Both the position numbers and the translations under genes were made by a program. A DNA stretch of 51,930 nucleotides, from contig CAOKQK010000015.1 in the NCBI GenBank assembly GCA_948470905.1, positions 1-51,930 of the forward strand, given 5' to 3'. The notes below the pieces were generated by a model. That model did no database searches, was not told where the DNA came from, and saw nothing but the letters and a program-made list of their open reading frames with translations. Below, one piece after another: positions 928 through 27,963 of the stretch. The DNA comes from an uncultured Lachnospiraceae bacterium. GTDB taxonomy: Bacteria > Bacillota > Clostridia > Lachnospirales > Lachnospiraceae. The number at the start of each line of letters is the position of its first letter. Position 1 is the stretch's first letter.

Positions 928-962
928 CCGTACCATGGGGGTTTGTGCTCATGAGAAATTAG

Positions 963-1094: not shown

Positions 1095-1115
1095 TGGAAT
1101 AAAGGAGGCATTGGA

Positions 1116-2390
1116 GTGGAAAAAGTAATGGATAAGGGAATGCTGGATTTTGTGAAGGAACTGAGCTTTGTCCGCATAGCCGGAAGTGAGGAGGAGAAGC
1201 GGGCGGCGGAGCTGATCATGGGAGAGGTTCGCGGAATTGTGGAGGAGACAGGAAATAAGGGCATCCTGACGGAATATATGCCTTTCAGAATTCCCCACGC
1301 GAAGGTCAGCAGGTGCTGCATACAGGCGGCGGGAAGGGAGGTTCCATGCGTGCCCTACCTACGTTCGGGCAATATTGACAGGGAGTGTGAGCTGGTCTAT
1401 CTGGACGGAGCTTCCGAGATTGATTTCGCGGGGATCGGGAGCCTGGAAGGCAAGGCGGTGCTCTTAAACAGGCTCACCGACGAAAAAGTCTATAAACGTC
1501 TGATAGAGCACAAGGCGTCGGCATTTTTGGCCATGCAGGGGAAGTATTATTTTTCAGAGGAGGAGACATCCCTGTATCCCAGAAGGCTGAGGGAGCATTT
1601 TAACAGGAATGGAGTGATACCGGGATTTATGATCACAGCAGCAGATGCGCTCTGGCTGGTCAGGGATGAGGTAGATCGGGTACGGTTGACGCTGGAGCAG
1701 GAGGATACGGAACCGGAGAGCAGGAATGTGTCAGCGGTGATCGAGGGCACGGACTTGAAGGAGGAAAGTATCGTGCTTACGGCACATTACGACTCCGTCC
1801 CGGTGGGCACCGGCGCCTGGGATAATGCCACAGGTGCGGCGGCGCTTCTGGAGATTTTCAGGCATTTTGCGGCTAATCCCTCCAGGAGGACGCTGCGGTT
1901 CCTCTGGTGCGGTAGCGAGGAACTGGGGCTGCTGGGCTCAAAAGCGTATGTGGAGCAGCAGAAAGACCTGCTTGACCAGATCGGGTTTTGCTTCAACTTT
2001 GACATGTGTGGCACGGTCCTGGGGTCAAACAGGATTATGGTGACAGGGGAAAAGGAGCTGCAGACATTTGTGGAGCAGTATTGTAAGATAGCCTGTTACT
2101 CCGCTGATATAAAGGCGGGAGTCCACTCCAGCGATTCGGCTCCTTTCTGTGACAAGGGGATTCCGGCAGTGGGGCTCAGCAGAGAAACCCCTGCTGCGGA
2201 GATACATACCATACATGACCTGCCTGCGCCGCTGGGTGAGAAGGCAATGGGCAGGAACGTAGCGTTTGCGGTGCGGATGATCGGGGATGTGGCAAATGCG
2301 GCGGTGCTTCCGGTAAAGAGGGGCATGTCAGAGGACATGAAGAAGGAACTGGACAAATATTTCCATCGGGAAGAATGCGAAAATATCTGA
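1116..2390 (+). CDS. M28-family zinc aminopeptidase
   Basis: This is a 424-residue co-catalytic di-zinc exopeptidase. The M28 ligand set is visible: H224-Y-D226 (AHYDSV), the bridging Asp236 in GAWDNATGAAAL, the catalytic Glu pair E268-E269 in GSEELGLLGSKAY, a later Asp in NFDMCG, and the last His in IHTIHDLP (around 364-367). No signal peptide is visible, so it probably acts in the cytoplasm on peptides. I chose the GTG at 1116 because AAAGGAGG (1101-1108) lies 7 nt upstream; an ATG at 1128 is possible, and an in-frame ATG at 1020 lacks a binding site. It stands alone on the plus strand; only a weak GC-rich hairpin with TTTTT follows near 2430-2455. The substrate is not predictable from sequence. 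Confidence 0.88.
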   Translation: MEKVMDKGMLDFVKELSFVRIAGSEEEKRAAELIMGEVRGIVEETGNKGILTEYMPFRIPHAKVSRCCIQAAGREVPCVPYLRSGNIDRECELVYLDGASEIDFAGIGSLEGKAVLLNRLTDEKVYKRLIEHKASAFLAMQGKYYFSEEETSLYPRRLREHFNRNGVIPGFMITAADALWLVRDEVDRVRLTLEQEDTEPESRNVSAVIEGTDLKEESIVLTAHYDSVPVGTGAWDNATGAAALLEIFRHFAANPSRRTLRFLWCGSEELGLLGSKAYVEQQKDLLDQIGFCFNFDMCGTVLGSNRIMVTGEKELQTFVEQYCKIACYSADIKAGVHSSDSAPFCDKGIPAVGLSRETPAAEIHTIHDLPAPLGEKAMGRNVAFAVRMIGDVANAAVLPVKRGMSEDMKKELDKYFHREECENI

Positions 2391-2507
2391 TTCAAAAGGA
2401 CAGTTCCTTACAAGGCACAGCGAGCCCACTGCGTGAGTGAGGCAGCCTTTTTCATCCTTTATCCCAAGTGGGTCTGGATTTGCAATTGGCATTATACTTT
2501 AAAGGTA

Positions 2508-3155
2508 TCAGAATATTCCATTTAAGGAAAGCGTAAACAGTACGCACGTTATTATGGTCAGGAGCGATACAAGTATAATGCCAATATTTACATGAGGCTT
2601 TGCAGCAGGGGCTTCGGTTTCCAGCAAGTGAGAACGTCGTAATACTGTCACGACAGGCTTATACAGAAGCATCGAAAGGGCTGCGTTCAGGCCTCCTTTG
2701 ATCAGATTAAACGGAAGAAAGGCTGGAAGCAGTAATTTTACGACAGCCTCTCTTGGATACCCCATGTAGATTGGCGCAATCAAATAGTTCCATAATAACA
2801 TTACTGGAACCATGCATCCCCATCCACAGAGAAGTCCGACAACGGCACCGTACAAAGTATGCTTTTTCTTATAAATAAATGCAGCGGTACAAGCAAATGA
2901 GCAGCTTGAAATAACATTCATTATGAACCCTAAAACTCCGTTTTCACTCATTGTAAACATTTCCACAGAGGAAACGGCCACGGCAAGCGTGAATGAGGTC
3001 AGAGGTCCAAATAGGAAACCTCCAATCGCTATAATGATGTCCTTGGGATCGTACTTTAAAAAGAGCATCATGGGGATGCGCCCCATGGCTGTCATAGCGT
3101 AGGCAAGCGCGCAGAGCATACCGATCGTTGTAATTTTTCTTGTTTTCCTGTCCAT
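2508..3155 (-). CDS. ribU: ECF transporter S component, riboflavin type (RibU)
   Basis: A 215-residue integral membrane protein with about six hydrophobic helices. The segment FLKYDPKDIIIAIGGFLFGP matches the conserved second-helix region of RibU substrate-binding components, which recruit the shared EcfA/A'/T energising module; that module is not in this window. RibU imports riboflavin, the precursor of FMN and FAD. The start at 3155 has AGGAGG 8 nt upstream. The specificity call rests mainly on the FMN riboswitch and terminator directly upstream, which independently point to flavin control. It is transcribed alone, opposite to its neighbours. Confidence 0.88.
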   Translation of the reverse strand: MDRKTRKITTIGMLCALAYAMTAMGRIPMMLFLKYDPKDIIIAIGGFLFGPLTSFTLAVAVSSVEMFTMSENGVLGFIMNVISSCSFACTAAFIYKKKHTLYGAVVGLLCGWGCMVPVMLLWNYLIAPIYMGYPREAVVKLLLPAFLPFNLIKGGLNAALSMLLYKPVVTVLRRSHLLETEAPAAKPHVNIGIILVSLLTIITCVLFTLSLNGIF

Positions 3156-3283
3156 TAAAGATACCTCCTATTTTAAGTTCCGCCTCTGCACTGCAACGCC
3201 CCCCTTATCTGGAAGAAAATTTCAACTGCGAAGGGCTGCAGCTGAAATTTCCTTCCGGGGCGTCTTATGTTCCGAGGCTGTTG

Positions 3284-3329
3284 AAAAAAATTAACACCTG
3301 AAAGCATCTAAATGCCGTTCAGGTGTTAA
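3284..3329 (-). terminator. Riboswitch-controlled intrinsic terminator of ribU
   Basis: On the minus strand TTAACACCTGAA pairs with TTCAGGTGTTAA (3318-3329/3291-3302), a perfect 12-bp stem, followed by seven T (3290-3284). It sits between the FMN aptamer and ribU, as expected for transcriptional attenuation: with FMN bound, transcription should stop here. A second long hairpin (about 3212-3257, GGAAG...CTTCC) lies between it and the gene. Confidence 0.9.
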
Positions 3330-3414
3330 TAAAATAGGTGGGTTGAAAATGTCAACAGAGCAAATGGGCAGGAAAAAAGTGCAGACCATTAGAATACCTC
3401 TAACAGTTTCAACA

Positions 3415-3525
3415 CACCTTCTTCAAATCCAGACTATACTGTCGGTTTTGGAGTTTCACCAAATCAGCATTTTCATGCTCGCGGACTTTACCGCCGATCG
3501 GGAATTTCACCCTGCCCTGAAGACA
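3415..3525 (-). ncRNA. FMN riboswitch (RFN element)
   Basis: Reading the minus strand, the conserved RFN blocks appear in order: CTTCAGGGCAGGGTGAAATT, CCCGATCGGCGGTAAAGTCC, GCGAGCATGAAAATGCTGAT, TTGGTGAAACTCCAAAACCG, and ACAGTATAGTCTGGAT. These match the six-helix FMN aptamer almost base for base, including the GGTGAAATTCC loops and the 3' strand that closes P1. The aptamer is followed by the 3284-3329 terminator and then ribU. Confidence 0.96.
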
Positions 3526-3626
3526 TTATTGCTGTTCAATTGTCTGTAACAGTATATCAAATAGAATGGAGCCTGTCAACTGCGGCAGAATTTCATATAG
3601 ATGGAACACAGCGTAGGAGGCTTTTT

Positions 3627-3648
3627 CCGTTATTCCCGCGAGCAATGA
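3627..3648 (-). repeat. Dispersed CATTGC-CGCGGGAATAACGG repeat, copy A
   Basis: On the minus strand TCATTGCTCGCGGGAATAAC-GG matches the copy at 30510-30531 with one change, and in part the copy at 51814-51830. Flanking bases (GTCAAT...ATTGAC) form a small stem. The rest of 3540-3834 holds no gene that I can support. Confidence 0.55.
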
Positions 3649-3834
3649 GCCAAGTCAATGAAATTGACTTTGCGAATTGCCGCGAGGGTCAAATACCATA
3701 GCGTCCCTTAGACGCATTGCGCTCTGCAGCGTTGCAAGCTTGATATCCCGTTGCTTGCAGCGGGGTATTTGATATTGGGATTTTTGTATCGAAACCAAAA
3801 TCAAGGGTGCAATGTGTCTGACGAAAACTGTTGC

Positions 3835-3863
3835 TTGACATTTTGACTTGCTGATGGTATGAT
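3835..3863 (+). promoter_or_regulatory. Sigma-A promoter of the AbrB-like/GT1 operon
   Basis: TTGACA (3835-3840), a 17-nt spacer, and TATGAT (3858-3863). This is close to consensus. Transcription should begin near 3870, inside the palindrome that follows. Confidence 0.8.
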
Positions 3864-3880
3864 TTGTATAACAAATCATA
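3858..3880. promoter_or_regulatory. Perfect dyad operator over the -10 box
   Basis: TATGATTTGT-ATA-ACAAATCATA is a perfect 10-3-10 inverted repeat that includes the -10 hexamer and the likely start site. A protein bound here would block the promoter. The first gene of the operon encodes an AbrB-type DNA-binding protein, so autorepression is the simplest reading (inference). Confidence 0.75.
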
Positions 3881-3894
3881 CTTGTGGGGAATAA

Positions 3895-3971
3895 GTTCCT
3901 ACAAGAGGGAACATATTGCTGCAGGAGGGAACGAATTGCTGCAGGCGGCACAAGCTCCCGCTTGCGGGAAC
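3895..3971 (+). repeat. Two GTTCC/GGAAC hairpins in the operon leader
   Basis: GTTCCTACAAGAGGGAAC (3895-3912) and GCTCCCGCTTGCGGGAAC (3954-3971) are variants of the palindrome at 1077-1094. ATTGCTGCAGG occurs twice between them. The second hairpin runs into TGGAGAATAGGAGG, the ribosome-binding site of the next gene. Confidence 0.55.
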
Positions 3972-3993
3972 TGGAGAATAGGAGGCACGAATA

Positions 3994-4212
3994 ATGAAGG
4001 CGCCAAAAGGAAAATATGCATGGACGGCTACCGTCGGAGAAAAAGGACAGATTGTGATCCCCAAACAGGCGCGGGACATATTTGGGATTAAGCCGGGAGA
4101 CACTTTGCTCATTCTCGGCGATGAGGATCGCGGTATTGCAATTCCGCCCAGGGGGGCGTTTGCCGAGCTTTTTGAAATGGCTTTTAACGAAAAGGAGGGT
4201 AATGAGGAATGA
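3994..4212 (+). CDS. AbrB/SpoVT-type DNA-binding regulator
   Basis: A 72-residue protein whose N-terminal 50 residues fit the swapped-hairpin AbrB/MazE fold: GEKGQIVIPKQARDIFGIKP followed by GDTLLILGDEDRGIAI. Such proteins bind DNA as dimers or tetramers. The start at 3994 has AGGAGG 8 nt upstream. Its stop overlaps the ATG of the glycosyltransferase (ATGA-type, 4209-4212), so the two are translationally coupled. The perfect dyad over the operon promoter (3858-3880) is the obvious candidate target. No toxin partner is adjacent, so a MazE-like antitoxin role is less likely than a dedicated operon regulator. Confidence 0.85.
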   Translation: MKAPKGKYAWTATVGEKGQIVIPKQARDIFGIKPGDTLLILGDEDRGIAIPPRGAFAELFEMAFNEKEGNEE

Positions 4213-5597
4213 AGAAGCTGGCATTTTTCTGTATACCTGCCCATGGACATACGAATCCAATGCTGCCTGTTGCCGCCGAGCTTGTGCGGCGGGGGAATAT
4301 GGTGCGTTTTTATTCTTTTGGAGAGTTTGGGGATAAGATCAGGGCTACAGGGGCGGATTTCATATCCTGTGATCCCTTCCTGCCGGAGCTGACCAAGCGG
4401 GAGGAGGCAGGTTTGAAAAAAGTCTCTACTACCGAGATGACCATACAGGATATCCGCATTACCCTTGGCATGAATGATTTCCTAGACAGGGAGTTTGCAG
4501 CTTTTGGGCCGGATGTGGTCTATACGGATTCTGTCTGCTTCTGGGGGAAGTTAAGCGCCTGGAAACATCATGTGCCGATGGTCGTATCCACCAGCACCTT
4601 TGCCTTCAATCAGCTGTCTTCCCAGTACATGAAGCACGGTCCCGGGGAGATGGCGGACGTGATTTTCGGGCTTCCCAGGATTTCCAGGGAAATGAAAAAG
4701 CTGGAGCCCTACGGCTATCATGTAAAAGGTGTCCTTTCTCTTATACAAAGTGACAATCATACGGATTCGGTCGTATATACCTCGCGGAAATTTCAGCCGT
4801 ATGCGGAGAGCTTCTCGGAACATTATGCCTTTGTGGGTCCTTCCGTATTTTCTGACATTCTGCCCGAAAAGCAAAAAGAGCGGCCGCTCATCTATATTTC
4901 CCTGGGGACCGTCATCAACGACAGGCCGGATTTCTACAATAAATGTATTGACGCCTTAAAGGATATGGATGCAGGGGTGATCATCTCCTGTGGGAATACC
5001 ATGGATCCGAAGCTTCTGGGAGCGCTTCCCGGTAATGTCAGCATTTATCCCTATGTGGACCAGCTGTCTGTCCTCTCCAGGGCGGATGTTTTTATCACCC
5101 ACTGCGGCATGAACAGCGTATCCGAAAGTTTGTACATGGCTGCGCCCATGGTTCTTTATCCACAGACCGGGGAACAATGCGCGGTAGCAAGGAGAGTCAG
5201 CGAAATCGGTGCGGGAATCCTGCTGCGGGACGATTCGGCGGAGGGCATCAGGGCTGCAGTGCAGGAAATTCTGGACAACAGCGCATATGCAGAAGCGGCT
5301 GCCGGGTGCAGTTCGGACTTCCGTGCCTGCTCAGGCGCTGCCGGCGCGGCAGAATTTATTGAAAATGCACCGCATACATCAAATGGCATTGACATAGTAG
5401 GTGAACTGAATAAGGAGAACGCGAAATTTCAGATGCTGTACTGGCTTACGGTGATCGCTGTGATCTGTCTTATGGGTATTTTCATCAGCTGGAAATATGT
5501 ATGGGTGATCGGAGCCGCTGCCGGTGTATTGTCTTCTCTCATTGGCGGGACCGTACAAAAAAGGCTTTATCAGAAAGTGCTTGGTAAAGGGGAATAG
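4209..5597 (+). CDS. GT1 (macrolide/UDP-glucuronosyltransferase-like) glycosyltransferase with C-terminal membrane anchor
   Basis: A 462-residue GT-B enzyme. The N-terminal acceptor domain starts with FFCIPAHGHTNPMLPVAAEL, typical of the MGT family. The C-terminal nucleotide-sugar site is visible around residues 294-320 (FITHCGMNSVSESLYMAAPM...QTGEQ). Unlike most macrolide glycosyltransferases (about 390-400 residues) it has a tail with two hydrophobic helices (about 405-445) and a basic end, so it is probably tethered to the inner face of the membrane. A lipid or hydrophobic small-molecule acceptor is likely (inference). It is coupled to the AbrB-like gene by a 4-nt overlap. A strong hairpin with T-tract follows at 5703-5747, though a promoter lies between. 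Confidence 0.85.
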   Translation: MKKLAFFCIPAHGHTNPMLPVAAELVRRGNMVRFYSFGEFGDKIRATGADFISCDPFLPELTKREEAGLKKVSTTEMTIQDIRITLGMNDFLDREFAAFGPDVVYTDSVCFWGKLSAWKHHVPMVVSTSTFAFNQLSSQYMKHGPGEMADVIFGLPRISREMKKLEPYGYHVKGVLSLIQSDNHTDSVVYTSRKFQPYAESFSEHYAFVGPSVFSDILPEKQKERPLIYISLGTVINDRPDFYNKCIDALKDMDAGVIISCGNTMDPKLLGALPGNVSIYPYVDQLSVLSRADVFITHCGMNSVSESLYMAAPMVLYPQTGEQCAVARRVSEIGAGILLRDDSAEGIRAAVQEILDNSAYAEAAAGCSSDFRACSGAAGAAEFIENAPHTSNGIDIVGELNKENAKFQMLYWLTVIAVICLMGIFISWKYVWVIGAAAGVLSSLIGGTVQKRLYQKVLGKGE

Positions 5598-5662
5598 TCA
5601 GATAATTAAAGATGGTCTAGTTATATTGACAAATTATCAGATAATTAAGTGAAAAGTTTATA

Positions 5663-5691
5663 TTTACAAATACCGGAAGGTATTGTATAAT
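5663..5691 (+). promoter_or_regulatory. Promoter upstream of gltB
   Basis: TTTACA (5663-5668), 17 nt, TATAAT (5686-5691). Upstream, TCAGATAATTAA occurs twice (5598-5609 and 5637-5648), 39 bp apart, which could be an activator or repressor site. The start site should fall near 5698. Confidence 0.75.
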
Positions 5692-5702
5692 TGTATACAA
5701 TG

Positions 5703-5747
5703 AAAGACGCAATGAGGCGTATGAGAGCCTTGCTGCGTCTTTTTTTA
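5703..5747 (+). terminator. Promoter-proximal intrinsic terminator / possible gltB attenuator
   Basis: AAAGACGCAATGAGGC pairs with GCCTTGCTGCGTCTTT (15 of 16 positions, allowing G-U), with an 8-nt loop and a run of T. It begins about 5 nt after the start predicted for the 5663-5691 promoter, so that promoter would give a very short RNA unless the terminator is relieved. It may also simply terminate the glycosyltransferase transcript. Confidence 0.75.
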
Positions 5748-5835
5748 TGCACAGGACCCGGATAATGGAAGAAGGACATTCCATGGAAAAAGAACATTCC
5801 AGGGAAGTTTGCTGCTGGCGCAGCATGGAAGCTGC

Positions 5836-5970
5836 GCGACGGGCAGAGGAAAACACCCATGCCGACCAGAACGTCTGCATAGACTGATGGGGCTGAGCGA
5901 CGAGCAGGGGAAAGTACCCATGCCGACCGGAATGTCTGAATAGACCGATGAGGATTGCGCGACGGGCAGA
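5836..5970 (+). repeat. 61-62 bp tandem repeat in the gltB leader, 2.2 copies
   Basis: Units begin at 5836, 5897 and 5959 with GCGACGGGCAG or GCGACGAGCAG and contain CCCATGCCGACC and TCTGNATAGAC-GATG. Two copies are full and the third is partial. No open frame with a ribosome-binding site runs through it. It ends about 35 nt before gltB. Confidence 0.8.
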
Positions 5971-6005
5971 AGTGCAGAGAGCAGAAATGATCAGGAGGAA
6001 GCCAA

Positions 6006-12511: not shown

Positions 12512-14494
12512 ATGGATATTGGTTATTTGATCGTACAGGCACGGACTGCCCGCGACGCGCTTCCGCTGGGCGGGGTACAGATCTGGATTACGGATGATCA
12601 GGAAAAAAGTGTTTTTCATTTGACAACAGATGAAAGTGGAGAAACGGAGAAAATCGCCCTGGAAACTCTTGAACGGTCCCTGTCTCTGGACCCGGATTTT
12701 TCCGGAACGCCCTTTGTGGGTTACAATGTCCTTGCCCATGCGGACGGCTATAATTCGGTTCATATTGTCGGCATCCCGATCCTGGAAGGGGAGACTGCCA
12801 TTCAGATTATTGAATTTGTGCCCATGAGCAAGACACAGCGCGCTCCGGCCGTGACAGAAATCCGCATCGGCGCGCCCGCTGTCTCCATGAAGGGCAGCCG
12901 TGATCAGGAGGGACCCGCCGAGGAGTCCCGGGTACTCCGCCAGGTTGTCATACCGAATCCGATCACGGTGCATCTGGGCAGCCCGGGCGCATCGGCATCC
13001 AATGTACAGGTGTCTTTTCCTGATTATGTAAAAAATGTAGCCAGCAGTGAAATATATCCCACATGGCCCGATGCATCCCTGAGGGCAAATATATATGCGA
13101 TCATCACTTTTGCGCTGAACCGGATCTACACCGAGTGGTACCGGAGCCGCGGCTACAGCTTTGACATAACGAATCATACTGCCTATGACCAATATTTTAT
13201 CTATGGGCGGAATATTTATGAATCCATCAGCCTGATCGTGGATGAAATATTTAATGAATATGTCCGCAGGCAGGGGCAGAACGCCCCATATTTTACTTCT
13301 TACTGCAACGGGACCACTGCGGCCTGCGCGGGTTTGTCCCAGTGGGGTACGGTGACACTGGCAAACCAGGGACTCAGTCCCATCCAGATACTGCGTTCCT
13401 ATTATCCCAAGGATATCGAGATTGCCGAGACAAATATTATCACAGGCGTTCTGTCCTCCTATCCGGGTACAGCGCTTAAGACGGGGAGTACGGGACTTGA
13501 CGTGCAGACGATCCAAACTTACCTGGAAAGAATCCGGCGCAATTACCCGGCAATTCCTGCCATTACAGATAAAACAGGAGTGTTCGGAGAGAGCACCAGC
13601 GCGGCAGTTGCCAAGTTTCAGCATATTTTCAATCTGACTCCCGACGGCATAGTGGGAAAGGCCACCTGGAATAAGCTTTCTTACCTGTATACCTCTGTCA
13701 CCAGGCTTGCGGAGCTGGACAGCGAGGGAACCTCCCTGGGGATTGGGACTGTTCCGCCGACTTCCATTCTGCGCCTTGGCTCGTCGGGACAGGATGTCAT
13801 CACCCTGCAGTATCTTTTGAACGTAGCTGCCGAGTTTAATCCCGCAGTTCCTGCTCCGGCACAGGACGGAAAGTTTGGGCCGGGGACACAGCAAGCGGTG
13901 GCGGCATTCCAGAGTGTCGCAGGACTTGAACCTGACGGCGTAGTGGGACCGCTCACATGGCAGGCACTGTATAACACTTATCTGGGCGTGGATGATGTGC
14001 TCCCGCCCGTCATTGATACGGGAGTTACGGAATATGTTGTCCGTTCGGGGGATACGCTTTGGCTGCTGGCTCAGCGCTTTCATACAACGGTTGACGCGAT
14101 CAAAAGCCTGAACGGACTGACCGGCAACACGCTGTATATCGGTCAGATACTGAAAATTCCCACAGCGGGAGCTTCAGGCGGATCATATTTTGAATATGTT
14201 GTCCGCTCCGGAGATACGCTTTGGCTGCTGGCCCAGCGATATCACACCACAGTTGATGCGATCATGAATCTGAACGGCCTGACCGGCAGCAGCCTGAGCA
14301 TAGGGCAGATACTCAAAATCCCTTCTGGGGGAGCGACCCCCATCCCATATTTTGAGTATACCGTCCGCCCCGGAGATACGCTTTGGCTGCTGGCCCGGAG
14401 ATATGGCACCACAGTCAGCGCGATCAAAAACTTAAACGGACTTAGCAGTGATATCCTGAATATAGGGCAGATTCTGCTGATCCCCAGTAACTGA
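12512..14494 (+). CDS. SpoIID-like wall protein with two PG-binding and three LysM domains
   Basis: A 660-residue modular protein. Residues 1-110 form a beta-rich, carboxypeptidase-regulatory-like domain. About 165-310 resemble SpoIID/LytB: SSEIYPTWPDASLRA matches the region around the catalytic Glu (Glu180 here) of SpoIID lytic transglycosylases, and GLSQWGTVTLANQGLSPIQI-LRSYY matches the family's C-terminal signature. Two PG_binding_1 domains (about 325-395 and 425-490) end in TPDGIVGKATW and EPDGVVGPLTW. Three near-identical LysM domains (about 508-660) start VVRSGDTLWLLA or TVRPGDTLWLLA. No signal peptide is visible, as in several spore-coat or cortex proteins. It probably acts on peptidoglycan during sporulation (inference). 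The ribosome-binding site AAGGAGG sits 12 nt upstream, rather far. Confidence 0.8.
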   Translation: MDIGYLIVQARTARDALPLGGVQIWITDDQEKSVFHLTTDESGETEKIALETLERSLSLDPDFSGTPFVGYNVLAHADGYNSVHIVGIPILEGETAIQIIEFVPMSKTQRAPAVTEIRIGAPAVSMKGSRDQEGPAEESRVLRQVVIPNPITVHLGSPGASASNVQVSFPDYVKNVASSEIYPTWPDASLRANIYAIITFALNRIYTEWYRSRGYSFDITNHTAYDQYFIYGRNIYESISLIVDEIFNEYVRRQGQNAPYFTSYCNGTTAACAGLSQWGTVTLANQGLSPIQILRSYYPKDIEIAETNIITGVLSSYPGTALKTGSTGLDVQTIQTYLERIRRNYPAIPAITDKTGVFGESTSAAVAKFQHIFNLTPDGIVGKATWNKLSYLYTSVTRLAELDSEGTSLGIGTVPPTSILRLGSSGQDVITLQYLLNVAAEFNPAVPAPAQDGKFGPGTQQAVAAFQSVAGLEPDGVVGPLTWQALYNTYLGVDDVLPPVIDTGVTEYVVRSGDTLWLLAQRFHTTVDAIKSLNGLTGNTLYIGQILKIPTAGASGGSYFEYVVRSGDTLWLLAQRYHTTVDAIMNLNGLTGSSLSIGQILKIPSGGATPIPYFEYTVRPGDTLWLLARRYGTTVSAIKNLNGLSSDILNIGQILLIPSN

Positions 14495-18340: not shown

Positions 18341-21300
18341 ATGAGGAAGATTGACAAAAGAGGCAGGATGAAGAAAGGAAGCGCATTTTTGCTTGCGGCG
18401 GCTCTGTGCCTGCAGGCAGGGTTCCCTTCGTATGCCACGAAGGCAGGCAGCGGGGGTGTGGGACAGGTGGATGTGTCCATAGGCAGTGCTTTGCTGTTGC
18501 AGAGGCCGGTGGATTTCTCTGTGAGCCTGAGTGGCGGAAGCGGCAGGGCAGGCAGCGAGCCCGGCATAGTCCGGCTGGAACCAGACGGTGCCTCGGAGGG
18601 CAGCGTGCGGTTTGACGGCCTGGAAGCGGGAGTATATACCCTGACTGTGTCCGGGAAGGGCTTTGCTACATATACGCAGGAGGTCCAGGTGTCGGACAGG
18701 GCGTGTGACGTGAGCCTGAAGACAGGTTTTCTGGGGGGGCTGAACTATGAGGCAGGCGCCTCACATCCGGGAGTTTTATTGATCGGCGATGTGAATGGGG
18801 ATGGCAGGGTCGATGAGGCTGACCGGACGGAGCTGGTGGAAGCCATTAATCGCGGAGTTTATGTTGAGAATGCAGATTTAAACGGCGACGGAGCAGTCAA
18901 TCTTGTGGATCTGGAGTATCTGGCGAAGGGGTATGCCGTGACAGGGGATACCCGGGCGGAGATCATAAGCCTTGTCCCGGCGGCGGTCATTGAGTCCAGG
19001 CAGGGTGAGGGCACGAAGGTGGAGGGTGAGCTGTCTGCCCTGCTGCGGGACGGGGAAAGCGTGAGACTGACTCCCAGGCAGGGTGGTTCCATCCTGGAGA
19101 ATCCGGTGTCTCTGGAATTTGATTTTGCTGGGGACAACGCCCAGGCTGACGGTATTATCATAGAGACGAATAATGAAAATCCCATCAGCAAGGCGCAGAT
19201 CGTAGTCCGTTACCTGGATGGGGGCGGGGAGCAGGAGGTGACGATCCCCGTGGAAGATGATGTGCATTATCTTCTGCGCAGCGCCCAGATAAGGGCAGAG
19301 CGGGACGGCGCGGGCAATATTTGTCTGCATCTGGGTTCCCAGGTGGCATTGAAGAAGGTGACTTTGACCATCATGGGGATGCGGAATAACAATAACCTGG
19401 CGGAAATTTCCAAGGTGGAATTCCTTAACGGCATGGAAGAAAGGATACCGGCTCCGGAAATGGATATCCCGCAGAACCTGTCAGCAGCAGCGGGGAGCCA
19501 GGTGATCGATCTGACATGGGATGCCTGTGTCAATGTCACCGGCTATGAGGTACAGATCCGGCAGGGCGGCAGGCAGCAGGTGGTGTCCACAGCCAAAAAC
19601 TCTATCTCTGTCCGTTCTTTTAATGGGAAGGAGCTGGAGAATTACAAGGAATATCAGATCAGCGTACAGTCCGTCAACGGCAGCTGGCGCAGCGGGTACG
19701 GCGATACGGTGACGGCGGTGCCAAAGCCAAGCGGCAGGCCGGATAAGCCGGATAATGTATCAGCCACAGGAAAGTACCAGAGTGTCCAGGTATCCTGGAA
19801 AAAGATGGACGACACTCTTTCCTACAATCTCTACTATAAGAAAAGTGCAGAAGAGTCCTATCAGGTTATAAAGGGCATTGAGGCAAACAGCTATACGGTT
19901 GAGAATCTGGCAGATCTGACAGAATATACGTTTTATGTCACAGGGGTCAATGACTTTGGGGAGAGCGCGCCTTCCCTGGCGGTTTCAGCTGTTACCACGG
20001 ACATGAATCCTGCGGAAATGCCAAAATATAATCTGATCAATATCGGCAAGGCGGGTGAGGTCGGGGCGCATATTATCAGCGCGACCACTAAGGGAACCAT
20101 GACAGACAGCAGCCTGGACACTCAGGCGGGCACGGCGTGGGGGACAGTGGATCACGATCCGTCGTCCTATTATCAGAAGAACACCTGGGATGACGGCGGA
20201 TTCAATAATCTGGGGCAGAACGGGCTTATCTATGAGTTTGACCAGGCATATAAGCTGGACACCATTGCCCTGCAGGAATTCGTTCCTCAGAGCATGGGAT
20301 ATTTTTATGCGAGAGTACGTTATTGGGATGAGGACGGGAAGCAGGTGGATATTGGCAGAGACAGTATCAGCGTGCAGAGAAAGACGGATGCCCAGGGACG
20401 TGTTTATTATGTGTTGAAGCTTCCGGAGCCTGTCAATGCGAAGAAGATCCAGTTTGGACTGGCGCGTTATCTGGCAGGAAACATCGGAACGACCATTTCA
20501 GAGGTGTACTTCTATTATTATGATACTCTGATGGATGAGGTAATGGCACTCTACGAGGATGACCTCCATACAGTCCTGCGGGCGGACGTGACACAGAGCG
20601 TCATTGATGCACTGCGGGTTAAGATTCATGCAAAGGATGAGGTCAGCGGGGAATATCACCCTGACAGAGAGCTGCTGGAGAAGGAGCTGCAGACAGCAGA
20701 GGCTATCCTGAAGGATGGAAAGCTGAATGCTTCCGTGGAAATATACAGCGGCATCAGCACCAAGGATACGGGCAGGGGCTTCGGCGGCATCAACGCATGG
20801 CAGCCTCTGGGTGTAGTGGCGGCAGCGGAAGAGGAGATCATGGTTTATGTGGGTCATAACAGCTTGAAGACCGGTGCAGACACCAGCCTCCAGCTGGTGG
20901 CGACACAGTACCATGCGGAATCTTCGCCTATGAGCAAGGTGGTGGCTACGCTGAAGGTGGGCGCAAACAAGGTTACGGTGCCCAAGATCTGGAATACCAC
21001 GGGATATGAGTCCGGCGGCGCCCTTTACGTCCAGTATACCGGCAGCAATGCCAATGACCGGTATGCTGTCCGTGTCAGCGGCGGCGTGCAGGTTCCACGG
21101 CTGGATCTGTATCGGGTGACGGATGCCGGGGAGCGTCTGTCGAGGACGGAAGCCTATGTGGAGGCACTGAAGGAATATACAGGTAAAATGGAGAACATAC
21201 ATAAGGAAGCCCATCAGGGCTCCGGGAACAAACTGGCGGCGTATGATTATGACAGCCATAACTGTATCCTGGGGGCAACCGATATCATGCTGGATACCAT

Positions 21301-23449
21301 GATGCTGTCGCTTCCGGCGCAGCAGGTGTTAAACGGTGCGGGAAGCGTCGGAACCCGGGAGCAGGCACGTAAGATCCTGAATTCCATGGATGCCATGGAG
21401 GATATGATGTATTTGTTCTATCAGCACAAGGGGCTGAATGCCAATGCTGCAGCCGAGTTGGACCGGATACCCAAGGGGCATTTGAACATCCGTTACCAGA
21501 GAATGTTCTCAGGCGCGTTTATGTATGCTTCCGGCAATCATATCGGTATCGAATGGAATGAGACAGCCGGAATGATGGGTGCGACGCCGGTGGTGTCCGA
21601 TGATGCCGGCAGATATCAGAGCGGTTCTTATTTCGGATGGGGCATTGCCCATGAGATCGGGCATTGCATAAACCAGGGCGCATATGCGGTGGCGGAGGTC
21701 ACTAACAATTATTACGCTCAGCTCGCCCAGGCGAAGGACCGCAATGAGGGCATGCGCTTCCAGTACGGGGAGATTTACAAGAAGGTGACTTCCGGCGCGA
21801 AAGGACCTTCCTCCAATCTGGCGACCCAGCTGGGTATGTACTGGCAGCTTCATCTTGCCTATGACAGGGGATATAATTACAAGACCTATGAAAACCATGG
21901 GGAGCAGCTTGCAGGCCTGTTCTACGCGAGAGTGGACACCTATGCAAGGGATACTGCAAAGGCGCCCGCACCGGGCGGCGTGAAGCTGGCGTTGTCCGGC
22001 GACAAGGATCAGGCGCTCATGCGTCTGGCATGCGCTGCCGCGGAGAAGAATATCCTGGAATTCTTTGAGCGCTGGGGAATGACTCCGGATGGAGACACAA
22101 AGGCTTATGCGGGACAGTTTGACAGGGAGACCAGGGCGATATATTACGCAAACGATGACGCAAGGGTTTACAGTCTCCAGGGCGGCGTGAGTAAGCTGAG
22201 CGCTGCCGGCACGACGGAAGCCGTGGGTGACAATGTGACTGCTGCGGTGAACAAAGATATTGCAAATCAGGTGGACTTCACCCTTGGTTCCAAGAACATT
22301 CCGGCTCAGGATGTGCTTGGCTATGAGATCGTGAGATGTATGATATCAGGCGGAGTGACTAACAGGGAAGCTGTGGGATTTGCCACGGAAGGCACCTTCA
22401 GCGACACGGTCTATGTGAACAATCGTGTGGTATGGTATGAGGTTACGCTGGTGGACAAATACCTGAACCGTTCGGCTGCAAAGGTTCTGGAGCCCATGAA
22501 GATAGAGCACGACGGCAATCTGGATAAGACCTTCTGGACCATTGGGACGGAGGGGCTGACTGTGCCCGGAGAGACGGAAGTTGCGGCGGGCAGCGATTCC
22601 CTGTGTACGCCCGAGAAGGAAAATCTTGCGGCGACGATGATCGACGGGGATTCGGGAACCATATATGAGGCAGTGTGCGGTAATTCTGCTGAGATTACCA
22701 TAACCTTTAACAAGGAGCTGACGGTGGCAGGCTTTGGGTATCGGCTGGGGGCAGCTGCTTCCGGTGACTATGAGATCCAGGTCCTGTCGGATGACAAATG
22801 GATCACGGCGGCAGCCGGAAGCTTTGGGCAGTCCCAATCCGAGACGGTCTGCTTTGAGAATGAAGACGGAAAGTATGTGAGTACTTACGGTGCATCTGCG
22901 CTGAAGCTGGTCCTGAAGGGACAGGGCGGAAGACAGGTGGCGATAGCGGAGCTGGATGTGCTGGGTGTGACCGGCGATAACGTGGACTTTGGAAGGACCC
23001 AGGACAGTGGGGCAGTGATCGGCACGCTGAAAGAGGCGTATCGTTATGGAGACCAGGAGGGCGATGTGATTCCGGCAGGTTCCATGATATTCACAGGGAC
23101 TTACAAGGGCAATCCTGCCTATAACGTCGTGATTCTCTATGACCAGAATGGAGAAATTGTAGGCGGTGTGGATGAAGAAGGAAATCTCGTGGCGCAGCAG
23201 ATCATCCTGGCGGACGTGCCGGAGGAGGGAGATATCAGGAATGTGTCACAGGGCACATGGATTTACTGGATAGAGCCCGAGAAGCAGGTGAATCTGGCGG
23301 GAAGCCGGGTGCGCGCAGAGCTTTACCGGGTAAATAATGCCCTGACCAATGAAGGACAGAGGATGGTCAGCGATTCGCTGGCGGAAACGGTACCGGAGAG
23401 CCTGCCGGAAATTACCATTGACAGCAGTAAAACACCAGAAAATCTGTAA
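18341..23449 (+). CDS. Secreted M60 (mucin-type) zinc metallopeptidase with dockerin, FN3 and carbohydrate-binding-like domains
   Basis: A 1702-residue secreted protein. A signal peptide occupies about 1-32. A type I dockerin lies at about 148-197 with two Ca loops, D150-VNGDGRVDEA-D161 and D179-LNGDGAVNLV-D190. Two FN3 domains (about 370-465, 466-556) are followed by an F5/8-C-like domain (about 560-720). An M60 N-terminal region and the catalytic domain carry HEIGH (H1104-H1108) plus Glu1119, the HExxHx(8-24)E signature. A second F5/8-C-like domain lies at about 1425-1545. M60 enzymes cut mucin-type O-glycoproteins next to glycans. No LPXTG or membrane anchor is present, so cell attachment should come through the dockerin and its neighbour. 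The start at 18341 is 17 nt from AGGAGG; the ATG at 18368 is an alternative. Confidence 0.9.
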   Translation: MRKIDKRGRMKKGSAFLLAAALCLQAGFPSYATKAGSGGVGQVDVSIGSALLLQRPVDFSVSLSGGSGRAGSEPGIVRLEPDGASEGSVRFDGLEAGVYTLTVSGKGFATYTQEVQVSDRACDVSLKTGFLGGLNYEAGASHPGVLLIGDVNGDGRVDEADRTELVEAINRGVYVENADLNGDGAVNLVDLEYLAKGYAVTGDTRAEIISLVPAAVIESRQGEGTKVEGELSALLRDGESVRLTPRQGGSILENPVSLEFDFAGDNAQADGIIIETNNENPISKAQIVVRYLDGGGEQEVTIPVEDDVHYLLRSAQIRAERDGAGNICLHLGSQVALKKVTLTIMGMRNNNNLAEISKVEFLNGMEERIPAPEMDIPQNLSAAAGSQVIDLTWDACVNVTGYEVQIRQGGRQQVVSTAKNSISVRSFNGKELENYKEYQISVQSVNGSWRSGYGDTVTAVPKPSGRPDKPDNVSATGKYQSVQVSWKKMDDTLSYNLYYKKSAEESYQVIKGIEANSYTVENLADLTEYTFYVTGVNDFGESAPSLAVSAVTTDMNPAEMPKYNLINIGKAGEVGAHIISATTKGTMTDSSLDTQAGTAWGTVDHDPSSYYQKNTWDDGGFNNLGQNGLIYEFDQAYKLDTIALQEFVPQSMGYFYARVRYWDEDGKQVDIGRDSISVQRKTDAQGRVYYVLKLPEPVNAKKIQFGLARYLAGNIGTTISEVYFYYYDTLMDEVMALYEDDLHTVLRADVTQSVIDALRVKIHAKDEVSGEYHPDRELLEKELQTAEAILKDGKLNASVEIYSGISTKDTGRGFGGINAWQPLGVVAAAEEEIMVYVGHNSLKTGADTSLQLVATQYHAESSPMSKVVATLKVGANKVTVPKIWNTTGYESGGALYVQYTGSNANDRYAVRVSGGVQVPRLDLYRVTDAGERLSRTEAYVEALKEYTGKMENIHKEAHQGSGNKLAAYDYDSHNCILGATDIMLDTMMLSLPAQQVLNGAGSVGTREQARKILNSMDAMEDMMYLFYQHKGLNANAAAELDRIPKGHLNIRYQRMFSGAFMYASGNHIGIEWNETAGMMGATPVVSDDAGRYQSGSYFGWGIAHEIGHCINQGAYAVAEVTNNYYAQLAQAKDRNEGMRFQYGEIYKKVTSGAKGPSSNLATQLGMYWQLHLAYDRGYNYKTYENHGEQLAGLFYARVDTYARDTAKAPAPGGVKLALSGDKDQALMRLACAAAEKNILEFFERWGMTPDGDTKAYAGQFDRETRAIYYANDDARVYSLQGGVSKLSAAGTTEAVGDNVTAAVNKDIANQVDFTLGSKNIPAQDVLGYEIVRCMISGGVTNREAVGFATEGTFSDTVYVNNRVVWYEVTLVDKYLNRSAAKVLEPMKIEHDGNLDKTFWTIGTEGLTVPGETEVAAGSDSLCTPEKENLAATMIDGDSGTIYEAVCGNSAEITITFNKELTVAGFGYRLGAAASGDYEIQVLSDDKWITAAAGSFGQSQSETVCFENEDGKYVSTYGASALKLVLKGQGGRQVAIAELDVLGVTGDNVDFGRTQDSGAVIGTLKEAYRYGDQEGDVIPAGSMIFTGTYKGNPAYNVVILYDQNGEIVGGVDEEGNLVAQQIILADVPEEGDIRNVSQGTWIYWIEPEKQVNLAGSRVRAELYRVNNALTNEGQRMVSDSLAETVPESLPEITIDSSKTPENL

Positions 23450-23466
23450 GGATCAAGAGGTATGTA

Positions 23467-24684
23467 ATGAACAGTAAAAGATGGAAAATAATAGTTATGG
23501 CGGTACTGTTCGCCTTTCTGATGCCAGTGGAGACACTGGCACAGGAGGGTGATGCAGTCCGTCTGGATGAGACAGGGACAGTCACACTGACTTCTCAGGA
23601 AGCTGCCAGAGAGGAGGTTTCTTCTTTACAGATTGGTCTGCGGGTGGATTCTGCGGAGGGTGAAAAGGTAGAGTTCATCTTTGCCGACAGTAACGCGAAG
23701 ATTTCCGAATTCCGCTATGATGAGGGGGCGAAGCAATGGAACCTCTATCTGGCGGGGACGGAAGCACTTTTTGCAAAGGGTTCGGATACTTTGACATTGG
23801 GTCGGGTGGTGGTCCTGGATGGAAGCGGCAGAGCCGCAGCGGCAACGGTCAGCGTGGCGGAAGATTCCGTGAAGTATGTCTATGGCACGGAGCTGAGATC
23901 CATTGGCGCGCTGAAGCTGCCGGAACCGGTGAGGCTCAATGAGCAGGAGGATTCAGGGGAGGATGATGGAGAAGATGATCCCGGCTGGGATGATGAAGAA
24001 GATGATCCTGACTGGGATGATGGTCCGGATCAGGATGATACTTCAGATGAGGAGGATTCCGGCAATGAAGGCGTCCCAGGCGCAGGCGACGGCTCTGGGG
24101 GAGGCGGAAGCCAGATACCGGTGAGCACGCCCGAACCGTCGGAGGTACCGGTGAGCACGCCCAAACCGTCGGAGGTGCCGGTGAGTACGCCCAAGCCATC
24201 AGGAGGTGGAAGCCAGGCATCGGTAAGTACGCCTAAGCCGTCGGGAGGCGGAAGCCAGGTGCCGGTGAGCACGCCCAAGCCATCAGGGGGTGGAAACCAG
24301 GGAACGACTGGAAGCACTGGAGGAAACGAGGCGTCGGTAAGCACGCCCAAGCCATCAGGAGGCGGAAGCCAGGGAATACCCGGCAGTGGTGAAGGCAGTA
24401 ATCAGGGCACTGGCAGCGGTTCCCTGGGGGATCTGAGTACTTCCCCCACATCTGCCCCGCAGGAAGGCGCGGACGGAGCAGGTTCGCCGTCGCCCAGTGT
24501 TCAGCCCACTAATGGGGAAGCCACAGACAGTGAAAAGGAAGACGCCGGGATAAACTGGGTGGTGTTAATAGTGCTTATACTTGCAGTGGCTTTAGCCATA
24601 GAGATTGCGGTGATGGTAGTGACAGTCCGGCGCAGGAAACCAAGAAAACCTGGCCAGGGAAAAGATAGGAAATTTGGGGAATAA
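23467..24684 (+). CDS. Membrane-anchored protein with cohesin-like head (possible dockerin receptor)
   Basis: A 405-residue surface protein, 17 nt after the M60 gene and probably in its operon. A signal peptide (1-25, ending VETLAQ) is followed by a beta-rich domain (about 30-150) with cohesin-like spacing: VSSLQIGLRV, VEFIFADS, KISEFRYDE, NLYLAGTEALF, TLTLGRVVV, ATVSVAED. An acidic Asp/Glu linker (about 158-205) and a long Pro/Ser/Thr/Gly linker with repeated STPKPSGGGSQ follow, then a C-terminal membrane helix (about 358-380) and a basic tail. This is the architecture of an anchoring scaffoldin. The cohesin assignment is by pattern only. The adjacent dockerin makes it plausible. Confidence 0.7.
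   Translation: MNSKRWKIIVMAVLFAFLMPVETLAQEGDAVRLDETGTVTLTSQEAAREEVSSLQIGLRVDSAEGEKVEFIFADSNAKISEFRYDEGAKQWNLYLAGTEALFAKGSDTLTLGRVVVLDGSGRAAAATVSVAEDSVKYVYGTELRSIGALKLPEPVRLNEQEDSGEDDGEDDPGWDDEEDDPDWDDGPDQDDTSDEEDSGNEGVPGAGDGSGGGGSQIPVSTPEPSEVPVSTPKPSEVPVSTPKPSGGGSQASVSTPKPSGGGSQVPVSTPKPSGGGNQGTTGSTGGNEASVSTPKPSGGGSQGIPGSGEGSNQGTGSGSLGDLSTSPTSAPQEGADGAGSPSPSVQPTNGEATDSEKEDAGINWVVLIVLILAVALAIEIAVMVVTVRRRKPRKPGQGKDRKFGE
24115..24370 (+). repeat. Tandem GTGAGCACGCCCAAGCC repeat in the surface linker
   Basis: About six copies of a 30-48 nt unit containing GTGAGCACGCCCAAGCC-TC encode the STPKPS repeats of the linker. Unit lengths vary, so the number may differ between strains. Confidence 0.85.
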
Positions 24685-24703
24685 ACTTTCCCCATGGACG
24701 CAT

Positions 24704-24750
24704 AACGGCTTTATCGTACAGTTCATATTACAGTACGATAAAGCCGTTTT
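24704..24750. terminator. Bidirectional terminator between surface protein and hemerythrin
   Basis: AACGGCTTTATCGTAC (24704-24719) pairs perfectly with GTACGATAAAGCCGTT (24733-24748), followed by TTTT and CTGCTTT on the plus strand. It separates convergent genes. Confidence 0.85.
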
Positions 24751-24770
24751 CTGCTTTAACAGAGCTTGTT

Positions 24771-25583
24771 TTATGTAGTACCGATCTTTTTGTCGCTGTG
24801 CAGGATGTGGTTGATCAGCCACTGGGTCAGAAACTGCATGAGCTCCTCCAGGGATTCCTGTTGGTTCGCATCAATCTGATCCAGATCCATCTCGCCCAGC
24901 CGCTGCACGAAGGCTTCATGGGCTGCTTTTTGTGCGGGGAGCCCAGAATAGCCTATGCTTTCCATATATTGTTCTTCATCCTTAAAGTGGACCGCGGTGT
25001 ATTGGAACAGCTCATCCAGAAGATGCACGATCTCATCATATTTGTCAGGGATGAACTCGTTTTTGATTAGGTTGTTCACTTCCCCAATGATACGGAACAA
25101 TTCCCGGTGCTCCTGGTCTACCAGTTCAATCCCGGTGAGGTATTCATCTGTAAAAAGAAAATCCTTCTCCTTCTCCCATTCTCTGGCAGGGACAAGCTTC
25201 CCGATCATCATGTCCGAGCTGATGATGTGGCGGTACAGCCATGTCACCAGATATTGGAGCAGGTCGTCCAGGAAAGCCTGCTGGTCATTGCCGGGGAGTA
25301 TGATATCCATCTCTGAAATTTTTGCGGTGAAAGCGTTATGCTGCCTGCGCTGGAGCTCCAGTTCAGGATGTCCGATGCTTTCCATGTAGGCTTCTTCATG
25401 TGCGAAATGGTTCCCGGCATAATCCTTTAAGCGATCCAGAAGCTCTCTTGTCTGGTCATATTTGTCTGAGACGAATTCGTTGGCAAGCAGCTCGTGAAGC
25501 TGGTTCAATATGCGGAACAGCTCGCGGTGTTCGTCGTCAATCTGTGACATGCCTGTCAGACAATCCTCTGTAAAATAATACAT
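24771..25583 (-). CDS. Tandem bacteriohemerythrin
   Basis: A 270-residue soluble protein made of two hemerythrin domains (about 1-135 and 140-270), each usually a separate protein of about 135 residues. Domain 1 has DDEHRELF (His19), HFAHEEAYM, HNAF and WLYRHIISSD; domain 2 has DQEHRELF, HFKDEEQYM, HEAF and WLINHILHSD. These supply most di-iron ligands. In both domains the His four residues before the HNAF/HEAF His is replaced by Gln. The protein probably binds or scavenges O2 or senses redox in an anaerobe. The start at 25583 has AAAGGAGGG upstream. A repeat element separates it from the TGTAAA-17-TATACT promoter near 25949-25977. Confidence 0.9.
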   Translation of the reverse strand: MYYFTEDCLTGMSQIDDEHRELFRILNQLHELLANEFVSDKYDQTRELLDRLKDYAGNHFAHEEAYMESIGHPELELQRRQHNAFTAKISEMDIILPGNDQQAFLDDLLQYLVTWLYRHIISSDMMIGKLVPAREWEKEKDFLFTDEYLTGIELVDQEHRELFRIIGEVNNLIKNEFIPDKYDEIVHLLDELFQYTAVHFKDEEQYMESIGYSGLPAQKAAHEAFVQRLGEMDLDQIDANQQESLEELMQFLTQWLINHILHSDKKIGTT

Positions 25584-26165: not shown

Positions 26166-26286
26166 AAACATGACAAAGAACAGTACTGAGCAATGATAAG
26201 GCAGAACGCCTGAGCAGCCACAGTGTGGAAAAGTGTGTGTGGGTGCCGGATTCATTGTCCATGGAACCATGAAAGGAGGAGCTGCA

Positions 26287-26592
26287 ATGAATACGCAGTT
26301 AAAAAAAGGAGCGTTGGAGCTGTGTGTGTTATCACAGTTGGTTCGGGGAGACATGTATGGCTATGCGCTGACAGAGAAGATATCCGGTGAGATGTCAATT
26401 GCCGGCGGTACGCTGTACCCTATCTTAAGGAGGCTTAAGGAGGACGATTATGTGAGCACTTATCTGGTGGAGTCAGGTTCGGGGCCTGCCAGGAAGTATT
26501 ATCAGCTGACGGAGAAGGGCAGGCAGCGCCAGAGCACCGTGAGAAAGGAATGGGAAGATTTTGCGGCGGCAGTGAACAGGCTGCTGGATTGA
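26287..26592 (+). CDS. PadR-family transcriptional regulator
   Basis: A 101-residue winged-helix repressor of the short PadR type. MNTQLKKGALELCVLSQL, MYGYALTEKIS, GGTLYPILRRLKEDDYV and ARKYYQLTEKG are standard PadR features. The ATG at 26287 has AAAGGAGGA 6 nt upstream; an upstream in-frame ATG at 26233 has none. It is followed after 60 nt by a HAAS/DUF4097 protein, a very common pair in which PadR represses itself and the membrane-associated partner. The ligand is unknown. Confidence 0.93.
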   Translation: MNTQLKKGALELCVLSQLVRGDMYGYALTEKISGEMSIAGGTLYPILRRLKEDDYVSTYLVESGSGPARKYYQLTEKGRQRQSTVRKEWEDFAAAVNRLLD

Positions 26593-26652
26593 CAGGAGCT
26601 TCAAACCACAATATAAAAACAGCGCGTATGCGGCGCGGAAATGAGGAGAAAG

Positions 26653-27963
26653 ATGACGAGAGAAGAATATTTGCGCAGGCTGCAGGAACAGTTGGAGAAG
26701 TTTGGAAATGAGCTGCAGCAGGAGATTATGGAGGATTATGCCCAGCACTTCGCAGAGGGCGAGGCAGAGGGCAGGACGGACGAGGAGATCATCCAGGAAT
26801 TGGGTAATATCGAGGATATGATCCGGGAGCTGCGTTATACGGAAGCAGAGGTACAGCAAGACAGGAGCGGAGGGCTTTCCGTGCAGGCACAGGGCGGGCA
26901 GGTATCAGGCGGAGCCAACGCGGACGGCACAACCGGGGGCACTGGAAGCGCGGCACAGGGAAGTGGAAACACCGCTTGGGGAGCTGAAAATGCGGCACAG
27001 GCAGATAACACGGAGCAATCCGACGACAAGGCGGGTGGAAAGGAATACAAGAGTATTGTCCTGAAGTCATGCGTGGCGGATGTCTTCCTGGTTAAGTCGG
27101 AGGATAACGCAATCCACGTGGATTACAAGAATGACGGTTCCATGGTAGATAAGATGAAATATGAGTTTTATCAATATGAAAAGGATGGCGTATTCTATGC
27201 GGGAGTCAGGAAGAACAGGAATTATAACGATGGGACGCAGCGTTCTTTCAGCTTTGGGCCGACTACGATCACTTTCCACAACAATTTCAGCGCAGGCTGG
27301 AGGAACGAAGATATTGTATTGACCGTCAGGGTGCCGGAGAGGATTCCGGAGGTCAAGGTTGAGGCAGGCAGCGGCGATATTCAGATGAACGGGCTCATCC
27401 TGCCAAAGGTCAAAGCAGTGACAACCAGCGGCGATGTGAATATGTCTGGAATTGTGCTGGAAAAACTGGATGTCACCACAGCCAGCGGAGACATAACGCA
27501 GGACGGTGTTGTGGTGGATACGCAGAATTTTACCACGGCCAGCGGGGATTTTGATATGAAAAATGTCAAGAGCTGTAAGACAAATATTGTGACAGCGTCT
27601 GGGGATGTGTCATGCGTGAAGGCAACTTTTGAAAAATTAGATGTGAAGACCGCCAGCGGAGATGTGAACCTGCAAGTGGACGCAGGGCAGTATCATCTGG
27701 TAACAGCCAGCGGAGACGTGAACCTGATCACAGGGACAGCGCCTGAGAAGGTGGAAGCCAATACAGCCAGCGGAGATATCTATTTTACACTGGCAAAAGT
27801 TGAGGGGGCGGAAGTCAAGGTCAGCAGCCGCTCCGGGGATGTATCCGTCAGCCAGAAAGGCAATGACATAAAGGTCCAGAACGGAAGTGTGTATACGTTC
27901 GGCGACGGCGCCTGCAAGGTGTCTGCGGGAACCGTTTCGGGGGATATCGGCATTATATTGTAG
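26653..27963 (+). CDS. HAAS-DUF4097 protein (PadR operon partner)
   Basis: A 436-residue protein. Residues 1-65 form a HAAS/DUF1700-type helical domain (MTREEYLRRLQEQLEKFGNE ... GNIEDMIREL). A variable Gly/Ala/Gln-rich linker (about 75-135) follows, then a long DUF4097-type beta-solenoid of about 300 residues whose turns repeat the TASGDV or TTSGDV motif about eight times. It has no signal peptide or membrane helix. The ATG at 26653 is preferred over 26641 because AGGAGA lies 5 nt before it. In related operons these proteins respond to envelope stress or small molecules; the function here is not defined. Confidence 0.85.
   Translation: MTREEYLRRLQEQLEKFGNELQQEIMEDYAQHFAEGEAEGRTDEEIIQELGNIEDMIRELRYTEAEVQQDRSGGLSVQAQGGQVSGGANADGTTGGTGSAAQGSGNTAWGAENAAQADNTEQSDDKAGGKEYKSIVLKSCVADVFLVKSEDNAIHVDYKNDGSMVDKMKYEFYQYEKDGVFYAGVRKNRNYNDGTQRSFSFGPTTITFHNNFSAGWRNEDIVLTVRVPERIPEVKVEAGSGDIQMNGLILPKVKAVTTSGDVNMSGIVLEKLDVTTASGDITQDGVVVDTQNFTTASGDFDMKNVKSCKTNIVTASGDVSCVKATFEKLDVKTASGDVNLQVDAGQYHLVTASGDVNLITGTAPEKVEANTASGDIYFTLAKVEGAEVKVSSRSGDVSVSQKGNDIKVQNGSVYTFGDGACKVSAGTVSGDIGIIL

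Follow-up and report, generated by a model that had tools for sequence, protein, structure and literature searches.

How a secreted peptidase without an anchor of its own might be kept on a Gram-positive cell is the question raised by two adjacent genes of an uncultured Lachnospiraceae bacterium. The genes lie on contig CAOKQK010000015.1 of assembly GCA_948470905.1, a stretch of 51,930 nucleotides (nt) referred to here as the window, which belongs to a genome of 3.7 Mb that is 89.9% complete. The first gene encodes a metallopeptidase of the M60 family with an N-terminal dockerin, and the second a protein with a single head domain on a membrane-anchored stalk. Together they probably constitute a two-gene display system, in which the enzyme is tethered in trans via a cohesin-like head on the anchored stalk. 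According to this mechanism, the M60 enzyme would be secreted carrying a dockerin whose two calcium loops are recognizable from their motif and conservation, while the neighbouring gene would supply one receptor head on a stalk with a predicted membrane anchor. Binding of the head to the dockerin would then tether the enzyme to the producing cell, where it may cut O-glycosylated host proteins such as mucin, as its family membership suggests. The original prediction for this DNA had envisaged a minimal two-gene surface complex for mucin cleavage. Synteny, the joint occurrence of dockerin and head, and the interchangeability of the anchors provide good support for the complex itself; the identification of the head as a cohesin is suggested rather than proven, and binding and the mucin substrate are extrapolated from the respective families.

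The enzyme gene (18341..23449, + strand, as are all features of the pair) is an open reading frame (ORF) of 1702 amino acids (aa) and contains the only match to Peptidase_M60 (PF13402) in its genome. The catalytic domain (aa 1019-1246; 21395..22078) exceeds the Pfam cut-off, with an E-value of 1.4e-9 and 38.3 bits against a required 25.8, and it holds the zinc motif HEIGH-x10-E, in which HEIGH occupies aa 1104-1108 (21650-21664) and the final glutamate is E1119. Its relatives in the PDB include 7jfs, 5kdj, 6xsx, and 9pl8, two M60 entries there bear O-glycopeptidase names, and the name ZmpB presumably belongs among 7jfs and 5kdj. The zinc motif that defines M60-like peptidases is HEXXH-x(8,28)-E, as given in the sections consulted of PMC3267712. 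The type I dockerin (aa 149-195; 18785..18925) likewise exceeds the cut-off of its family (Dockerin_1, PF00404; E 2.4e-8, 34.5 bits against a cut-off of 22.9) and weakly matches the solved dockerins 1daq and 2mte (E 2.5e-4). Both of its predicted calcium loops, D150-D161 (18788..18823) and D179-D190 (18875..18910), proved to be intact: in the 102 ungapped rows of an alignment of 103 M60 sequences, no substitution occurs at D161, D179, N181, D183, or D190, and 100 rows have D150. These near-invariant ligands argue for a functional dockerin. A CarboxypepD_reg/PEGA-like stretch precedes the dockerin (aa 85-120; 18593..18700; Pfam E 7.7e-7, below the cut-off), and an Fn3 domain follows it (aa 468-549; 19742..19987), one of two fn3 stretches counted by Pfam in the protein; F5/8-like matches occur in some M60 relatives. 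The enzyme had also been said to lack an anchor, and in a simple hydropathy and motif scan none of the 103 M60 rows ended in a membrane helix or an LPxTG motif.

The second gene begins 17 nt after the first and encodes a protein of 405 aa (23467..24684) that belongs to no Pfam family. Both proteins have secretion signals, and the predicted signal peptide, linker, and membrane helix of the second were all borne out. Its signal peptide is followed by the head (aa 24-146, ~120 aa; 23536..23904), which is delimited by a head hidden Markov model (HMM) and is cohesin-like by profile comparison only, then by an acidic and subsequently Pro/Ser/Thr/Gly-rich linker (23935..24550), a hydrophobic helix at about aa 363-387 (24553..24627; hydropathy 3.1), and the basic tail RRRKPRK. 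A strong terminator-like hairpin (24704..24748) follows the gene; the RNA fold of 24695-24775 has a free energy of -28.4 kcal/mol and a z of -5.67, and a simple terminator scan did not list the hairpin. A contig scan with the whole 405-aa protein as query confirmed no relative.

Whether the two genes belong together was addressed with the best 80 of 445 relatives, fetched together with the M60 alignment. These named loci are mostly from uncultured Lachnospiraceae and Ruminococcus, include Acetatifactor muris and Dorea sp. 5-2, and for the most part appear to stem from guts. An HMM grown from the window's head and four relatives, run over these loci, placed a head no more than 368 nt 3' of the M60 gene, or fused to it, in 74 of the 80. 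The contig ends within 152 nt in three of the remaining six, and the other three (L071, L080, L083) represent one paralog type with no downstream head. No second head was found at E<=0.01 in the 74 head-bearing loci. A dockerin is present in 77 of the 80 loci, the other three being cut at the 5' end; a strict dockerin pattern had missed 41 of 74 M60 rows, of which the HMM recovered 38, while three were cut. The gap between enzyme and head ranges from -86 to 368 nt in 88 separate pairs, with a median of 18 over 93 pairs when fusions are counted as 0, and of 94 separate heads, 90 begin with a signal-peptide-like stretch as scored with a simple rule on hydropathy. The widest gap (L082:5668-6037, 368 nt) holds an ORF of 111 aa, which may be an additional small gene or may reflect a frameshift. 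In locus L083, a protein ending in LPQTG and cut by the contig start (L083:2-691) stands directly before a dockerin-bearing M60 gene (841-5997) that has no downstream head, which suggests an order M60-head-M60 in which two enzymes share one head.

A draw of 397 genomes from the family, which overlaps the named loci (loci L051 and L007 share one protein) and is thus not independent of them, gave a similar picture. PF13402 matched 42 genes, 41 of them over the cut-off, in 41 genomes, and the head profile matched 32 genomes. Dockerin-type enzymes make up 38 of the 42, a dockerin being seen in 37 and the last being cut by the contig end before it. A head accompanies 36 of these 38, as the next gene, as a fusion, or in one case (G042) across a contig break with enzyme and head on different short contigs; four of the 36 heads surfaced only when the HMM was applied to fetched DNA. 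In the two exceptions, L097 and L098, the slot of the head is occupied by a different secreted protein. None of the four M60 genes that lack a dockerin has a head beside it, and one of them (L092) encodes an enzyme that ends in its own membrane helix. The gene pair is strongly conserved in other genomes, with a head in 74 of 80 named loci and beside 36 of 38 dockerin-type enzymes. Both further members of the genus in the draw lack the M60 and the head gene alike, which makes the pair accessory. In G149, a genome without M60, a weak match to the head (E 6e-4) within an ORF of 2184 aa was judged to be due to chance. Genome G281 has a second dockerin-bearing M60 gene with a head of its own (L103:2946-8294), in which HE[ILVMF]GH is absent and PF13402 falls below the cut-off; it is possibly an inactive paralog.

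What speaks most strongly for the head as the docking part is the remainder of the head proteins, in which the anchor is swapped while the head remains constant. Among 99 distinct heads, 53 are followed by a membrane helix and 8 by an LPxTG motif with a helix; M60 fusions account for 5, cut sequences for 9, and other tails for 24. Eleven of these 24 were scanned with Pfam, which found choline-binding repeats in seven (one below the cut-off), a dockerin in L058, and Fn3 or Big_2 only in three. Every listed row has one head per protein. Because relatives keep the head and exchange the tail (LPxTG, choline-binding, SLH, or dockerin), the tail is read as an anchor and the head as an adaptor. Two features of the tails weigh against this interpretation: no attachment domain was identified in 16 of the 24 other tails, 13 of which lie outside the Pfam scan, and four of five fused relatives retain the N-terminal dockerin despite a head on the same chain, the fifth being cut. 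A dockerin-like C-terminal stretch was recognized by eye in all five fused members; of the two scanned with Pfam, L029 gave a match and L031 did not. The variety of anchors around a constant partner also speaks against the idea of a carbohydrate-binding or adhesin function for the head, in which the two products would merely be co-expressed surface proteins that degrade mucus. No family was identified for the head, and the jelly-roll fold is common to cohesins and several CBM families, both of which favour such an idea. The head nevertheless goes with dockerin-bearing M60 enzymes, none having been seen next to dockerin-less ones, and its comparison with CBM3, the sole CBM family compared, is at the level of noise, which leaves this alternative improbable.

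The association of an anchored partner with dockerin-bearing enzymes extends beyond the family. A survey of 196 genomes of the class Clostridia revealed M60 matches in 15, the window's own genome included. Loci were fetched from 10 of the 14 others (all except G431, G439, G575, and G583), and nine were evaluated, G584 (L160) having given no ORF under the filter used. These nine loci contain five M60 proteins with a dockerin and five without. As judged by eye, a secreted slot-mate with a head-like N-terminus stands directly behind all five dockerin-bearing enzymes and behind none of the five dockerin-less ones. The tails of the slot-mates are SLH-like in three of five, and Pfam confirmed SLH in both that were scanned. 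The head profile (A3) itself matched a single head in the 196 genomes, that of the window. A profile of ten slot-mates, including L097 and L098 (the latter placed among them by eye), matched the heads with an E-value of 1.2e-7, or 1.7e-6 in the reverse direction.

Whether the head is a cohesin, the nine-strand jelly-roll that serves as the partner of dockerins, is a more difficult matter. Profile comparison with hhalign, in which the E-values apply to single comparisons and not to a database search, aligned the heads with 70 cohesins from Clostridia at a score of 28.1 (E 3.9e-4, probability 33-38%) and, in global mode, collinearly at E 6.6e-5. The highest decoy scores with the heads were 16.9 for 12 M60 blocks, 14.6 for reversed controls, and 13.3 for CBM3. 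The slot-mates scored 27.0 or 20.7 against the same 70 cohesins, depending on the direction of comparison. Several observations count against a cohesin identity. The hhalign probability reached only 33-38% with the 70 cohesins and 16-40% with a set of 30, and the heads gave no signal (<1% probability) with six classical cohesins alone. Pfam recognized a cohesin in 0 of 76 heads, and PDB sequence searches with the heads returned nothing or unrelated weak matches, with no cohesin among them. The margin is modest, because the slot-mates scored no better with the 30 cohesins (20.9) than with a PEGA-like decoy (22.4) and because cohesins themselves reached 22.7 with the M60 C-terminal block. Moreover, two cohesin subsets match each other at 99.6%, which makes the head no more than a distant member of the cohesins. 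The profile comparison, which places the head nearest to cohesins below the level of normal certainty, is suggestive of a cohesin, and a compact, diverged one is tentatively the most likely identity. The "cohesin-like spacing" originally attributed to the head thus finds weak backing from profile-profile comparison and none from Pfam or PDB sequence matches.

In the full set of pairs, the divergence of the head follows the dockerin more closely than any other M60 window, and less clearly so after thinning. Matching 103 M60 rows with 98 heads gave 93 pairs (same strand, -200 to 600 nt apart), of which 91 entered a mirror-tree comparison; M60 sequences that contain X, are shorter than 1600 aa, or lack HE[ILVM]GH were left out. 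In the partial form of this comparison, with the rest of M60 held fixed, the dockerin window ranked 1 of 162, a position that it held at widths of 40, 56, and 80 residues and, again of 162, after removal of fused members, all of these results being descriptive ranks. On the opposite side, the 56-residue dockerin windows fell to ranks 2, 6, and 14 of 162 when the set was thinned to 57 sequences and to between 9 and 53 at 18 sequences, and inter-protein mutual information revealed no dockerin enrichment at an effective sequence number (Neff) of 25. These ranks bear on a different arrangement, in which the head tethers M60 via another domain and the dockerin is an internal calcium-stabilized module that packs against the PEGA-like domain before it. 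High ranks are also taken by windows 246-321 and, once fused members are removed, 1606-1671; at 57 sequences the first place goes to 746-801, the PEGA-like stretch lies ahead of the dockerin in all eight sequences inspected, and the retention of the dockerin in fused members would be understandable. We nonetheless regard this arrangement as unlikely in view of the near-invariance of both calcium loops, the missing head beside the four dockerin-less enzymes of the family survey, and the profile similarity between head and cohesin. A fuller version of the preferred reading, tethering via head and dockerin, has a chance that we place slightly above even. It holds that the head represents a novel, compact kind of cohesin outside Pfam, co-evolved one-to-one with the N-terminal M60 dockerin, and that across Clostridia the pair would be an autonomous "one enzyme, one socket" cassette, whose socket is fixed while the anchor is swapped among membrane, sortase, choline-binding, S-layer, and dockerin forms.

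The dockerin might instead dock to an ordinary scaffoldin cohesin encoded elsewhere in the genome, the neighbouring gene having another role. Compatible with this is a PF00963 match at E<=0.01 in 23 of 37 genomes with dockerin-type M60 genes, 19 of them over the cut-off and the three fused-head genomes among them. The other 14 have no PF00963 match, the window's own genome included, where no such cohesin appeared even at E<=10. That genome, within the completeness stated above, contains one dockerin, one head, and no Pfam cohesin, and docking to a scaffoldin accordingly seems very improbable.

Five other features of the window lie apart from the pair. A tandem hemerythrin protein, a single chain in which Pfam finds two Hemerythrin stretches, is encoded at 24771-25583 on the - strand. 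At 26233-27963, a HAAS-DUF4097 protein comes after a PadR-like regulator. A reverse transcriptase ORF (RVT_1) at 47951-49219 perhaps belongs to a group II intron or another retroelement. A single protein at 12512-14494 combines a weak SpoIID-like stretch (below the cut-off) with two peptidoglycan-binding and three LysM stretches. The product of 4209-5597 exceeds the cut-off of the macrolide-family glycosyltransferase model TIGR01426, a general subfamily that carries no claim of resistance.

In cellulosomes, anchoring scaffoldins present a cohesin-type receptor on an SLH or sortase anchor, for use by scaffoldins or by many plant-fibre enzymes. The heads described here likewise occur with SLH or LPxTG tails and differ in forming a dedicated pair of adjacent genes with the enzyme. 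The hallmarks of a cellulosome or mucinolysome are missing: there is one head per protein and no Pfam cohesin in the genome in place of a multi-cohesin scaffoldin, and the M60 dockerin is the only Dockerin_1 match in that genome (89.9% complete) in place of several dockerin-bearing enzymes. Among the published systems found, the mucinolysome of Limousia comes closest; in the portions of PMC12997984 consulted, it also involves dockerin-bearing mucin peptidases, together with carbohydrate-active enzymes (CAZymes), and a scaffoldin, cSca5, with an N-terminal cohesin and a C-terminal LPxTG. In contrast to the one enzyme, one head, and one dockerin of the window, it comprises many enzymes and multi-cohesin scaffoldins found by the Pfam cohesin model (PMC12997984, same portions). 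The string M60 does not occur in the main text of that paper, which the search covered. The cohesin (X82)-dockerin glycosidases of C. perfringens, as summarized there, resemble the present pair in having a single cohesin per protein and a dockerin partner; those cohesin proteins also carry a glycoside hydrolase, whereas the receptor here is a non-catalytic anchored stalk (PMC12997984, as excerpted).

Among M60 enzymes, BT4244 degrades mucin and, like 7jfs and 5kdj, shares the catalytic domain and gluzincin motif with the window's enzyme; it is a lipoprotein, unlike the anchorless protein described here (PMC3267712, in part). Of 415 M60-like proteins, the same excerpts count 2 with a dockerin, and a figure of that 2012 paper places a question mark at the anchor of Clostridium and Bacillus sequences (PMC3267712). 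No report was found that links peptidase M60 or O-glycopeptidase to dockerin, M60-like proteins to Lachnospiraceae, or Acetatifactor muris to mucin and cohesin, in a search whose coverage mostly excluded subscription journals.

If the proposed display system is correct, it would explain how anchorless M60 peptidases stay on Gram-positive cells, the point marked by that question mark in the part of PMC3267712 consulted. It would also mean that the standard cohesin family model misses the receptor, and the two proteins would offer a natural small binding pair suited to direct tests of specificity. In many Lachnospiraceae and other Clostridia, cohesin-dockerin logic would then serve single enzymes outside cellulosomes.

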